Below, piece after piece: positions 7,819 to 59,347 of a DNA stretch of 64,000 nucleotides. Source of the DNA: Arthrobacter jinronghuae (GTDB lineage: Bacteria; Actinomycetota; Actinomycetes; Actinomycetales; Micrococcaceae). Positions within the stretch are counted from its first letter, which is position 1. Each line of letters starts with the position of its first letter. The notes under the pieces are model-generated. The model had not been told where the DNA came from. It saw only the letters and a program-made list of their open reading frames with translations, and searched no databases. The stretch covers positions 930,001 to 994,000 of the forward strand of contig NZ_CP104263.1 of assembly GCF_025244825.1 (NCBI RefSeq), given 5' to 3'. The position numbers were made by a program, and so were the translations under genes.

Positions 7819-8625
7819 ATGCCAACCCGACGCCCCAAGGTGCCCCGGTCCGCGGCCCCAGCCAACCCGGACAGGGTAAAAGCCAGCGGAGGCGACGCGT
7901 CGAAACCGGTGAAGGCTGCCGCCCCGAAGGCTGCAACCCCGAAGGCCGCCGCCCCGAAGGGTGCAACCCCGAAGGCCACCGCCCCGAAGGCTGCCGCCCC
8001 GAAGGCGACGGCTAAGAAAGCACCGGCCGCGAAGGCTAAGCAGCCGGCGGCCCGGAAAGCCGAAGCTCCGAAGGCCGGAACGCAGCCGGGGAACCAGCGC
8101 TTCGGGAAGATGTCGGCATCGGACGCCCGCGCAGCAGTGCGCTCCCAGCTTTCCGGCGCGATCCGCCGCAAGTCCGATCCTGCACCGGAATCAAAAGCCC
8201 CCGCAGCCGTGCCGGAGGTGGAAGCCCCGGATGAGCTGCGTCCAGTACCCGCGAAGGCATTCTCCGGACGGCTGCTGGTCCTTGCCATGGTGATGGTGGC
8301 CATCACCGTACTGCTTGCACCGTCGGTGCGGACGTACCTTCAGCAGCGCTCGGAGATCGCCGTGATGAAGGCGGAGATTGCGGAGGCTGAAGCAACACAG
8401 GCCGAATTGGAAGTCCAGCTTGGCCGCTGGGAAGACCCTGCCTACATCAAGCAGCAGGCGAGGGACCGTATTTTCCTGGTGATGCCGGGGGAGAAACGGT
8501 ACCTGGTCAAGGGTGAAAACGGTGTGGAACAAGCAGAGCAGCTTGCTTCCGAAGAGGAGCCCGAAGACCTGCAGTGGGTGGATTCGCTGTGGGACTCGGT
8601 CAAGAAATCCGCCACGGCACAGTAA
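7819..8625 (+). CDS. FtsB/DivIC-like septum formation initiator with Lys/Ala/Pro-rich N-terminal tail
   Basis: A 268-residue bitopic division protein. Residues 30-90 form a low-complexity cytoplasmic tail of repeated A-P-K-A/T-A units resembling histone H1 tails. A membrane helix spans about 151-168, followed by a coiled coil (175-203) and the family motif W-DPAYIKQQARDRI with later PGEKRYLV at 204-230. DivIC/FtsB proteins join FtsL and FtsQ in the divisome and control septal peptidoglycan synthesis. The ATG at 7819 has AGGAAG just upstream; earlier in-frame starts would run back through the eno terminator. Location between eno and DUF501 is the conserved actinobacterial position for this gene. 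Confidence 0.9.
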   Translation: MPTRRPKVPRSAAPANPDRVKASGGDASKPVKAAAPKAATPKAAAPKGATPKATAPKAAAPKATAKKAPAAKAKQPAARKAEAPKAGTQPGNQRFGKMSASDARAAVRSQLSGAIRRKSDPAPESKAPAAVPEVEAPDELRPVPAKAFSGRLLVLAMVMVAITVLLAPSVRTYLQQRSEIAVMKAEIAEAEATQAELEVQLGRWEDPAYIKQQARDRIFLVMPGEKRYLVKGENGVEQAEQLASEEEPEDLQWVDSLWDSVKKSATAQ

Positions 8626-13301: not shown

Positions 13302-13375
13302 GCCCCAGTAGCCCAATTGGCAGAGGCAACGGACTTAAAATCCGCGTGTTGTCGGTTCGAGTCCGACCTGGGGTA
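13302..13375 (+). tRNA. tRNA-Leu (anticodon UAA), short variable loop
   Basis: A 74-base cloverleaf with acceptor GCCCCAG/CTGGGGT, a three-pair D stem with the Leu-like GGCAGA loop, anticodon stem CGGA/TCCG around loop CTTAAAA (anticodon TAA), T arm GTCGG-TTCGAGT-CCGAC and discriminator A. The variable region is only about five bases (GTGTT), not the long arm expected of class II leucine tRNAs. CCA is not fully encoded. Confidence 0.88.
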
Positions 13376-54917: not shown

Positions 54918-55451
54918 GCGGAACCGGCCGTAGGCAGGATCAACGGTTTCCGGGTCCATCCCCATCAGTATCGCTAGCTGCTCCACGATGACGTCATGCA
55001 CCAGTTCGCTGACGGGCACCAGGGAGCGGGCAGCCGTTTCGACGGCGTGCCGGTAGATGGTGATGACCGGGGGCCGGTTTGGTGCGGAGGCCGTCCCGGC
55101 GCCCAGCGGAATGGGTCCGCCGGAACGCGCCAGCTCCTCAAGTCCCGGAGGGATCTCCTCGACCACGAACTGGTAGGACTGGATGCGTTCGCCCCAGAGC
55201 CGTTCGAGTCGTTGGGCTGATTCGAGTACCCACTCGTCGAAACGTTCCGCACGCGTGCGGGCACCGGCCAGATGCGGCGGGATCACGTCTCCCCGCAGGC
55301 CGCGGCCGTGCCGGTTGCGCCGCCGCTGCCGGAAGGACCGGGCCGGCACGCCGGGGGAGGAGGCGGCTGCGGCACTTGACTCAACGGCACTTGACTCAAC
55401 GGCACTTGACTCAACATCGAGGCGCACCCGGAATGAAGATCCCATGGACAT
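54909..55451 (-). CDS. Metallopeptidase (zincin-like, Zincin_1) family protein with degenerate active site
   Basis: A 180-residue protein assigned to the short zincin-like family by its overall form and by its place between DUF5719 and DUF3499. The segment where the family has HExxH reads VHDVIVEQLAILMGM, so the second His and first Glu are missing and zinc catalysis is doubtful. The N terminus contains three in-frame V-E-S-S-A repeats. The ATG at 55451 lies six bases after TAGAGT, which supports this start despite the repeat. A basic RQRRRNRHGRG patch follows the repeats. Confidence 0.8.
   Translation of the reverse strand: MSMGSSFRVRLDVESSAVESSAVESSAAAASSPGVPARSFRQRRRNRHGRGLRGDVIPPHLAGARTRAERFDEWVLESAQRLERLWGERIQSYQFVVEEIPPGLEELARSGGPIPLGAGTASAPNRPPVITIYRHAVETAARSLVPVSELVHDVIVEQLAILMGMDPETVDPAYGRFRPL
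55371..55415. repeat. Three perfect 15-bp tandem repeats inside the zincin-like gene
   Basis: GGCACTTGACTCAAC occurs three times without change at 55371-55385, 55386-55400 and 55401-55415. The unit length keeps the frame, adding five residues per copy. Confidence 0.95.
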
Positions 55452-56292: not shown

Positions 56293-57759
56293 GTGAGCAT
56301 TGACTTCAAAGTAGCCGACCTTTCCCTCGCCGAAGCCGGACGCCACCAGATCCGGCTGGCCGAACACGAGATGCCGGGCTTGATGGCGCTGCGGCGCGAG
56401 TACGGTCCAAGCCAGCCGCTGGCCGGAGCCCGGATCGCCGGGTCCCTGCACATGACGGTGCAGACCGCCGTGCTGATCGAAACGCTGACGGCCTTGGGCG
56501 CTGAAGTCCGCTGGGCGTCCTGCAACATCTTCTCCACACAGGACGAAGCCGCTGCCGCCGTGGTGGTGGGCGGGGGAACGGTAGACGAACCCGCAGGCGT
56601 CCCCGTCTTCGCCTGGAAGAACGAGTCTCTCGAGGACTACTGGTGGACCGCCGAGCAGATCCTTACCTGGCCGGAAGGGTCCGGCGGCCCGAATATGATC
56701 CTTGACGACGGTGGCGACGCCACCCTCCTGCTGCACAAGGGCGTGGAGTTCGAAGCTGCGGGGTTCGTTCCGGAAAACCCGCAGGACGGCGATGAGGGCT
56801 ACTCCTACGAGTTCACCGTAATCCTCGACCGTCTGCGCCGCAGCCTGGCGGAGCACCCGGGGAAGTGGACCGAAATCGCCAAGGGCATCCGGGGCGTCAC
56901 GGAGGAAACCACCACCGGTGTGCTGCGCCTTTACCAGCTGGCGGCCGAAGGCAGGCTGCTGTTCCCGGCCATCAACGTCAACGACTCCGTCACCAAGTCC
57001 AAGTTCGACAATAAATACGGCATCCGGCACTCCCTCCCGGACGGCCTGAACCGTGCCACCGACACGCTCATTGGCGGCAAGGTCGCCGTCGTCTGCGGTT
57101 ACGGCGACGTCGGCAAGGGAGCCGCGGAGGCACTTCGCGGGCAGGGCGCCCGGGTGATCGTCACGGAAATCGACCCGATCTGCGCACTGCAGGCGGCGAT
57201 GGACGGCTACCAGGTGGCCAAGCTGGAATCCGTACTGGCGCAGGGCGACATCTTCATCACCACCACCGGCAACAAGGACATCATCATGGCCAGCCACATG
57301 GCGGCCATGAAGCACCAGGCGATTGTCGGCAACGTCGGCCACTTCGACAATGAGATCGACATGGCCGGACTCGCCCGGATTCCCGGAATCCGCAAGGTCG
57401 AGATCAAGCCGCAGGTCCATGAATGGGTGTTCGATGAAGGCACCGACGCGCAGCGCAGCATCATTGTGCTCTCCGAAGGGCGGTTGCTCAACCTTGGCAA
57501 CGCCACCGGCCACCCGTCCTTTGTTATGAGCAATTCCTTCGCGAACCAGACCATCGCGCAGATCGAGTTGTTCACCAGGCACGGCGACGGGACCTACGCC
57601 AACCAGGTCTACGTGCTGCCCAAGGTCCTGGACGAAAAGGTGGCCCGCCTGCACCTGTCCGCCCTCGGCGTCGAACTGACTGAGCTGACCAAGAGCCAGG
57701 CGGACTACCTGGGCGTTGACGTGGCGGGGCCTTTCAAGCCCGAGCATTACCGCTACTGA
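56293..57759 (+). CDS. ahcY: Adenosylhomocysteinase (S-adenosyl-L-homocysteine hydrolase)
   Basis: A 488-residue NAD-dependent enzyme hydrolysing S-adenosylhomocysteine to adenosine and homocysteine. The NAD loop GYGDVGKG is at 269-276, [13 protein letters not shown] is the catalytic Lys region, and the C-terminal KPEHYRY, which reaches the partner active site, is intact. A 40-residue insert typical of actinobacterial and eukaryotic forms is present. GTG start with GAGG upstream. The adenosine made could feed the add deaminase. Confidence 0.97.
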
Positions 57760-57769
57760 CTGCTACCCG

Positions 57770-58546
57770 GGGGGGTTGTGCCGGTTCCGCCGGATAACCC
57801 CGTCTGCTGTACTAGCAGCGGTTGGGGCTCTCTGCTGGGCGTTGGTTGTACAGCTAACGGGGCTTTGGGCGCCGGATAACCCCGTCAGCTGTACTACCAG
57901 CGGCCGGCCCTGCCGGAGAAGCCCATTTACTGTACTACCAGCGGTTGGGGCTCTCTGCTGGCCGTTGGTTGTACAGCTAACGGGGCTTTGGGCGCCGGAT
58001 AACCCCGTCAGCTGTACTAGCAGCGGTTGGGGCTCTCTGCTGGGCGTTGGTTGTACAGCTAACGGGGCTTTTGGCCGCCGAATAACCCCGTCTGCTGTAC
58101 TACCAGCGGCCGGTCCCGCCGGAGAAGCCCGTCTGCTGTACTACCAGCGGACCGGTCCCGCCGGATAACCCCGTCTGCTGTACAACCAACGGTTGGGGCT
58201 CTCTGCTGGGCGTTGGTTGTACAGCTAACGGGGCTTTGGGTGCCGGATAACCCCGTCTGCTGTACTACCAGCGGTTGGGGCTCTCTGCTGGGCGTTGGTT
58301 GTACAGCTAACGGGGCTTTGGGCGCCGGAGAAGCCCGTCAGCTGTACTACCAGCGGACCGGTTCCGCCGGATAAGCCCGTCTGCTGTACAACCAGCGGCC
58401 GGTCCCGCCGGATAAGCCCGTCTGCTGTACTAGCAGCGGTTGGGGCTCTCTGCTGGGCGTTGGTTGTACAGCTAACGGGGCTTTGGGCGCCGGATAAGCC
58501 CGCCAGCTGTACTACCAGCGGCCGGGCCCGCCGGATAAGCCCCGGC
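57770..58546. repeat. GTAC-centred 41-bp-period repeat array in two orientations
   Basis: Eighteen motifs centred on GTAC occur at 57809, 57848, 57891, 57932, 57971, 58014, 58053, 58097, 58138, 58180, 58219, 58262, 58301, 58344, 58386, 58427, 58466 and 58509 (mean spacing 41.2). Twelve are forward (CCCGTCTGCTGTACTACCAG type) and six reverse (CGTTGGTTGTACAGCTAACG type). The reverse units belong to a nearly invariant 44-base block starting with TTGGGGCTCTCTGCTGG at 57822, 57945, 58027, 58193, 58275 and 58440. Adjacent opposite units can fold into stems of about 20 bp. The array ends in a partial forward unit at the RDD stop codon. Confidence 0.95.
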
Positions 58547-59347
58547 TCAATCGGTGAACGGCATCCGATGCAGCCGTTCGGCCAGGGCCCGGGACTGCCG
58601 CCGTTGACGGTCCAGCCGGACGTAGTCGCGGTTCCGGCGCTCTGCGACGACCGCCCGGAGGTAGGCCTCCGGATGCGTGCCCGGCGGCGGCTGCGGGGAA
58701 ACATGCGCAGTGGTTTCCGAGGCAAGTTCGGAGGCGAGCACCATTCTGGCCGTTCCGGTCATCCGCCCGCTCTGCGCGAGGAAGCGGGAGATGCGGCGGG
58801 CCAACCCGTCCGGCAGACGGCCGATATCGGCCAGGTCCGCCCAGCCGGCAAGCTCCGGGGGAGCCGCCACCAGTTCCGGCAGCGGTGCCACCACCCGGTC
58901 CCGCAGGGCGTAGGTGCCGGCCATGAGGTCCCCGAGGCGCTTGGACTTGTCATTGAACAACGCCACCATGAAGGCCAGTGAACCCGCGAGCATGTAGATT
59001 TCCAGGACCGCGGTGAACGCCCGGATGAAGGCATGCCGGAACCGCACCGAGCCGCCGTCGTCACGGACGATCCGCAACCCCATAACCAGCCGGCCGAGCG
59101 ACTTTCCCCGCGTCAGGGTTTCCACCGTGGCCGGGACCAACACAAACAGCAGCACCACAAGGCTCAGCGACAATGCCTGCGCCAGGGCGGGGTCCGACGA
59201 CACGACGGCCTGTGCGACCAGCAGCAGCAGGACGATGAACACAAGGACCTGGGCGACGACGTCAATGAGGGCGCTGACCATCCGGGCGGCGAAGCCGGCG
59301 GGGCGGAGTTCAAGGACCACCGCTTCGCCGGTAACAATGCTGCTCAT
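58547..59347 (-). CDS. RDD family membrane protein
   Basis: A 266-residue protein with an RDD domain: R15 in LRPAGFAARMVSALIDVV, then TRGKSLGRLVMGLRIV, and RLGDLMAGTYALRDR. Three to four membrane helices occupy about 20-140, and a long basic cytoplasmic tail follows. RDD proteins are putative transporters. ATG at 59347 has AGGAGG six bases upstream. It is divergent from the SpoIIM-like gene, with which RDD genes are often paired in actinobacteria. Confidence 0.9.
   Translation of the reverse strand: MSSIVTGEAVVLELRPAGFAARMVSALIDVVAQVLVFIVLLLLVAQAVVSSDPALAQALSLSLVVLLFVLVPATVETLTRGKSLGRLVMGLRIVRDDGGSVRFRHAFIRAFTAVLEIYMLAGSLAFMVALFNDKSKRLGDLMAGTYALRDRVVAPLPELVAAPPELAGWADLADIGRLPDGLARRISRFLAQSGRMTGTARMVLASELASETTAHVSPQPPPGTHPEAYLRAVVAERRNRDYVRLDRQRRQSRALAERLHRMPFTD

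Follow-up and report, generated by a model that had tools for sequence, protein, structure and literature searches.

The repeat array between ahcY and the RDD gene of Arthrobacter jinronghuae raises the question of what kind of element a row of short, regularly spaced motifs in both orientations represents. The window analysed, to which the positions below refer unless a locus is named, is a stretch of 64,000 nucleotides. In it the ahcY–RDD intergenic region (57760..58546, 787 bp) is nearly all array. To its left lies ahcY, encoding S-adenosylhomocysteine hydrolase (56293..57759, forward strand; PF05221, E 1.4e-143), and to its right the gene for an RDD-family protein (58547..59347, reverse strand; PF06271, E 1.8e-14), so that the two genes converge with both stop codons facing the array.

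The array in the ahcY–RDD gap

The array itself (57799..58521) comprises 18 GTAC-centred units, 12 forward and 6 reverse, each of 23 bp. Spacings are 39 bp from forward to reverse, 41–42 bp from forward to forward and 43 bp, in one case 44 bp, from reverse to forward; the mean of 41.18 bp confirms the value of about 41.2 bp given in an earlier note on this DNA. The first forward unit is at 57799..57821 on the forward strand, with the others starting at 57881, 57922, 58004, 58087, 58128, 58170, 58252, 58334, 58376, 58417 and 58499, and the first reverse unit is at 57839..57861 on the reverse strand, followed by those starting at 57962, 58044, 58210, 58292 and 58457. The most constant part of the array is the reverse-to-forward, or divergent, pair, the constant core of the wider family. 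The first such pair, at 57851..57891, has 43 bp between its GTAC centres, as have those at 57974–58014, 58222–58262, 58304–58344 and 58469–58509; in the sixth the centres, at 58055 and 58099, are 44 bp apart.

Five of the six reverse units are identical across their 23 bp and the sixth differs by one base, in line with the near-identity described before. Tandem Repeats Finder returned overlapping rows with periods of 39, 41, 82 and 248 bp, and from the periods of 41, 82 and 248 bp it follows that multi-unit blocks have duplicated. The proposal that all motifs face the same side of the DNA holds only for a local pitch of about 10.3 bp per turn, at which the 18 units give R of 0.80; at 10.5 bp per turn R falls to 0.11, and on relaxed B-DNA the motifs would drift round the helix over 700 bp. 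That the array is not a CRISPR was borne out, as the linkers are themselves repeated and the units occur in both orientations. Across the whole window the sole match to the Rfam covariance models at the gathering score was a tRNA at 13302–13375. Other short tandem repeats, of 15 bp, are found in the window at 7911–8006 and 55370–55415.

A dispersed family confined to the genus

The search of the genome and its relatives that had been suggested revealed dispersed clusters. An 18-base motif pattern matched the 3.64-Mb genome 68 times, against 6 for the reversed-pattern control, and the repeats fall into 15 clusters of which the ahcY–RDD array is one, a distribution that disposes of the idea of a single site per chromosome. 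The family consensus is TAAGCCCGTTATCTGTACAACC, with the core CCCGTTATCTGTAC. The forward units of the ahcY–RDD array are drifted copies, the core being changed to CCCGTCTGCTGTAC or CCCGTCAGCTGTAC in most of them.

These sites, which we call type A, have the core TAANSCCGTTATCTG, matched in 16 of 29 genus genomes; the control had 0 matches in all 29. In the taxonomic family, 7 of 245 genomes matched, made up of 6 of the 17 genus genomes and one of the other 228, which had a single match. A second site type, type B, was found at the level of the order in 11 of 396 genomes: 13 matches were in one genus genome (G002), and 10 non-genus genomes had one each. Outside the genus this search covered 392 genomes, 31 of them from the family. 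Searches beyond the genus covered types A and B, and for both the single matches there are consistent with chance. A pattern for the pair with a fixed 19-base inner gap matched 18 of the 29 genus genomes, where the matches in G001 and G002 were single, with three mismatches each, and were treated as chance; the reversed control matched in one genome (G023). A description of these arrays was not found among the top-ranked full-text literature matches, which is weak evidence of absence; the available part of RepRanger (PMC12306157) mentions a single Arthrobacter species, in one row of a table.

Anatomy and site types

All 15 clusters of the genome have a divergent inverted pair whose GTAC centres lie 43 bp apart, and same-strand units run outward from this pair. 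Type A units carry CTGTAC, also CTGCTC, and have this centre of 43 bp. Type B units, CTGCACGAAGGAT, occur in genomes G003, G007, G018 and G023, have a centre of 53 bp in the clusters tabulated and often have unlike wings, one mostly GTTATCTG and the other CTGATCTG. Among pairs at 53–54 bp, 30 of 31 have CAC or CGC on both arms, and the 62 pairs that have TAC on both arms all lie at 43–44 bp; with the exception of two CAC/CGC pairs at 43 bp, the near-fixed spacing of the divergent centre is thus largely dependent on site type. Between the arms of type-B centres in G003 (e.g. L158, ~339–392) there are AAAA/TTTT tracts about 10 bp apart, a pattern that suggests intrinsically bent DNA.

Type C is a second dispersed inverted pair, GTTCATAGTGCAGTAGATG...CATCTACTGCACTATGAAC, present in 10 of 29 genus genomes and sharing the intergenic slots of the arrays or adjoining them (L040:3949–3992, L040:6410–6453, L077:3554–3597, L128:420–463 and L188:360–402). 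At the loci checked, 13 of its 15 pairs have a centre of 43 bp, the others being 42 and 47 bp. Its convergent junctions with type-A or type-B units, up to 110 bp, measure 29–31 bp (7), 60–61 bp (2) and 88 bp (1), and the same-strand junctions 47 and 53 bp. Further motif types, D/E (GCATYAGCTGTACRGAAGG; CTCCTGTACAGCAGATGC), were found in G017 at slots orthologous to three of the clusters of our genome (L154, reverse complement, ~304–539; L155:691–985; L156:204–428), with spacings of 32, 41–43 and 52 bp, one of 45 bp, and a divergent centre of 43 bp. Two of the 20 type-B arrays fetched from the distant G003 share gene slots (ctaB/ctaA and maf) with type-A arrays of our genome.

Two other repeats were seen at the loci. 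One, a tandem repeat of ~100–102 bp, is present in loci of the relatives (L130:515–812, L143:555–762, L152:1318–1537 and L153:720–1098), with a subperiod near 50 bp in L130 and L153. The other is an 11-bp tandem repeat, AGTCATCGGAA, beside one cluster (G000:C1 ~1248150–1248350, left flank of L032), next to which is a 403-aa gene that by eye appears integrase-like.

Most spacings fall on a helical ladder

The spacings were scanned at array loci from 17 genomes, giving 106 clusters of at least two units each, 500 units and 394 intervals. Same-strand intervals of up to 90 bp (n = 218) were 31 bp (86), 41 bp (103) or 42 bp (15) in 204 cases; the remaining values were 29, 30, 37, 40, 44, 51, 52, 61 and 83 bp, three of the intervals being at 51–52 bp. 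Divergent intervals (n = 133) were chiefly 43 bp (96) and 53 bp (30), the rest being 28, 44, 45, 54 and 84 bp, and convergent intervals (n = 34) were 28 bp (10), 38–40 bp (9), 48–51 bp (12) and 59 bp (1), with single values of 26 and 44 bp. The best-fit periods for the same-strand, divergent and convergent classes are 10.4, 10.2 and 10.8 bp, the peaks being broad. Most spacings of the family are therefore rungs of a ladder with steps of about 10.4 bp. Those off the rungs are 37, 44 and 61 bp (same-strand), 28 bp and 45 bp, the latter twice (divergent), 26 and 44 bp (convergent), and the type-C junctions of 47 and 53 bp.

Because a spacing is handed on in tandem duplication, the clusters do not count as independent cases, and the 31 and 41 bp spacings may have few origins each. 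When near-identical relatives were removed, which left nine genomes, and each spacing was counted once in a cluster, the same-strand and divergent classes had R of 0.93 (n = 91) and 0.95 (n = 70) at 10.5 bp, and the convergent class 0.75 (n = 13). For the first two classes, which are dominated by two rungs, R was also high at periods of 9 and 12 bp (0.80, 0.91; 0.82, 0.85), so the convergent class, with R of 0.42 and 0.62 at these periods, discriminates best; it is also the most independent, though it has only 13 values, collapsed by hand, with R of 0.80. The ladder recurs in type C, which was absent from the original scan, and the rungs are mostly kept in spite of divergent linkers and of motif types that change from one relative to another at a given slot. 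The suggestion of a multi-copy protein-binding array survives in modified form, since the 10-bp ladder fits it; the binding would be by a protein predicted from the arrangement of its sites.

Gain, loss and growth of the arrays

The ahcY–RDD gap of 787 bp measures 568 bp in another assembly of the same species, and in seven relatives with 84–94% local identity it is 10, 27, 27, 30, 22, 22 and 31 bp. An empty gap in all seven, together with the 568-bp version, indicates that the array has been gained recently, differs in copy number between strains and is no assembly artefact, as the earlier note had allowed that it might be. At other slots some relatives have an array, and others have an empty site or a type-C element instead. 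As elements are so often missing at orthologous sites, single arrays must be dispensable. A site upstream of a gene named by eye as gpmA holds the pair alone in G000 and G021, one unit more in G017, three more in G028 and a half-pair in G020, a series which suggests that the pair came first and the tandem units later.

Intergenic tandem repeats whose copy number varies between strains are familiar in actinobacteria from the MIRU/VNTR loci of mycobacteria, which are arranged head-to-tail. The arrays resemble these in position and variability and differ from them in having a divergent centre and a 10-bp ladder, neither of which is known from MIRU/VNTR loci.

Constraint, pairing and gene context

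Information content is 1.0–2.0 bits in the motif columns of type A and 0.5–2.0 bits in those of type B, with linkers mostly at 0.1–0.5 bits. The scored motif columns are ascertained; the unscored GGAT of type B at +17..+20 has 0.8, 1.6, 1.7 and 1.2 bits. In sets of three units with equal spacing (32 comparisons at 41 bp and 20 at 31 bp), neighbouring units differed at 4.6–5.4% of scored motif columns, 8.8–9.0% of the unscored columns +16..+20 and 12.1–17.1% of linker positions, so that the constraint on motif over linker among recently duplicated neighbours is modest and partly ascertained. A larger contrast between motif and linker (0.06 versus 0.49) was dropped as the mixing in of array edges had inflated it.

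Divergent pairs fold into strong hairpins on both strands (mean MFE z −6.2 for 72 type-A strand folds and −6.0 for 54 type-B strand folds), though such low energies are expected of inverted motifs in any case. No complementarity of the inner arms above shuffles was seen in 41 type-A and 27 type-B pairs, and the type-B arms agree below chance at stem positions +3 and +5. In type A there is a correlation between the two arms at +7, +8, +11, +12, +14, +15 and +21, at and outside the motif, which could reflect hairpin covariation or a shared subtype.

The arrays might be stacked bidirectional transcription terminators, or hairpins between genes that stabilise the 3′ ends of RNAs. The hairpin potential on both strands and the convergent stops at ahcY and the RDD gene would fit this, as would the scarcity of divergent contexts. 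The contexts are mixed, however: 11 of 35 arrays lie between convergent genes, 20 between codirectional and 4 between divergent ones (4, 9 and 2 in our genome; 7, 11 and 2 for the 20 arrays of G003). The context genes were taken from a codon-usage caller, and two of the contexts in our genome rest on weak short ORFs; no called gene is overlapped by more than 40 bp by any G003 array, with two padded array boxes touching genes by 1 and 11 bp. Given also that the inner arms pair no better than shuffles, that those of type B disagree at two stem positions, that RNA hairpins need no helical spacing and that seven relatives cope with 10–31 bp at ahcY–RDD, we regard a terminator role, which the earlier note had raised, as improbable.

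A further possibility is that the arrays are strong DNA gyrase sites, comparable to BIME-2, taking up supercoils between genes. Phased arrays do adjoin gene ends, and the 41-bp units have an AT/GC periodicity of about 10.25 bp (rank 0.045 for type A and 0.014 for type B), but the 31-bp units have no significant 10-bp signal (0.175 and 0.119) and other harmonics score equally. As described in the portion of PMC6379681 available, the E. coli gyrase motif spans 130 bp with a 10.75-bp GC periodicity in its flanks. The arrays share with E. coli BIME-2 and strong gyrase sites their intergenic, repeated nature, BIME-2 being bound by a chromosome-shaping protein; such recognition is long and degenerate, as far as that portion tells, whereas the motif here is a sharp one of 16–21 bp. 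Gyrase sites seem an improbable explanation.

Relation to BIMEs and mobile repeats

BIMEs are described, in the part of PMC2817692 available, as regularly spaced REPs of alternating orientation. In the broad sense the arrays are of this kind: short intergenic units in two orientations are clustered with regular spacing, mosaic and chromosome-wide, with 15 clusters, fixed spacings and type-C pairs abutting type-A arrays at 29–31 bp. They are not BIMEs in the strict, REP-based sense, as the units are not REPs; nor, compared with that description, do they have GTAG/CGTC-tagged REP stem-loops or a RAYT in the genus, and they radiate from a divergent centre with spacings near whole helical turns. 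Judged from the unit consensus CCCGTTATCTG[TC]AC, neither GTAG nor CGTC is present, and a short ATAA-N5-TTAT dyad occurs in the consensus of type A but not of type B. With the CGTC-tagged REPs, as far as the available text of PMC3733652 describes them, the units have in common that they are short, dimer-forming and without a dedicated transposase. The likeness does not extend to the tag, as CCCGTC is present in most forward units of the ahcY–RDD array only and is absent from the family consensus. That text gives CGTC repeats for five phyla, Actinomycetota not being among them.

The strongest rival to a host-selected element is a selfish palindromic repeat (MITE- or REPIN-like) without host function, in which a small inverted pair, mobilised by some putative enzyme, grows by replication slippage and the rungs are inherited unit lengths. 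It would account for presence and absence at orthologous sites, for copy numbers that differ between strains, for the hairpins that divergent pairs can form, for arm correlations of the sort that hairpin copying or a shared subtype would yield, and for the restriction to one genus and the mosaic with another inverted element. What it does not predict is that steps of 10 bp recur in each of three orientation classes and across several types of site, and it is mainly on this ladder, the independence of which is partly established, that it fails. In addition, no Y1/RAYT transposase (Y1_Tnp, PF01797) was found in any of the 29 genus genomes at E ≤ 0.001, in a search whose control was positive in 5 of 14 named genomes, and by eye no clear target-site duplication was seen at the filled and empty junctions inspected, which are too diverged to define one. 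The REP-like mobile repeat of the earlier note is hence retained as a BIME-like element, which the dispersed clusters and their presence or absence fit, and abandoned as a RAYT-driven REP. A purely selfish repeat seems to us unlikely, though it deserves serious consideration.

Discussion

The explanation we favour, to which we would give an even chance, is that these are genus-specific, BIME-like intergenic mosaic elements that provide phased sites for a putative oligomerising DNA-binding protein. Each element would have begun with a divergent inverted pair whose sites have the core CCCGTTATCTGTAC. Tandem duplication presumably then added same-strand units on the outside, in steps of about 3 or 4 helical turns and, rarely, 5, and larger blocks (82 and 248 bp) were probably duplicated again. 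The rungs may persist through cooperative occupancy of the sites by an oligomerising, sequence-specific DNA-binding protein, and the bound sites could fold or wrap into a nucleoprotein patch lying between genes.

A shared neighbouring gene was considered as the source of the binder by comparing the proteins encoded around the 20 G003 arrays with those encoded nearest to our own clusters. Only two syntenic slots and generic transporter/ATPase similarity emerged, so no candidate binder was obtained.

More tentatively, and with rather less than an even chance in our view, the arrays may represent a new class of platform: bipolar arrays of sequence-specific sites at 3, 4 or 5 helical turns around a fixed divergent centre of 43 or 53 bp, with a putative oligomerising reader, in one group of Arthrobacter. 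Sites and specificity would co-evolve (types A, B, C and D/E) with a constant geometry and some of the gene slots unchanged, and the elements would spread by an unrecognised route.

The roles of REPs and BIMEs have been difficult to pin down, as these repeats are at the same time hairpins, mobile units and protein sites. In the present arrays the geometry helps to tell these ideas apart, since near-whole-turn spacing is kept as linkers, inner-arm pairing and even motif type drift. With near-identical strains that differ in their arrays, relatives with empty sites and several site types, one can test whether interspersed repeats of bacteria are under selection as DNA–protein scaffolds. Any binder that came to light would be a new protein, regulatory or shaping the chromosome, whose target code evolves.
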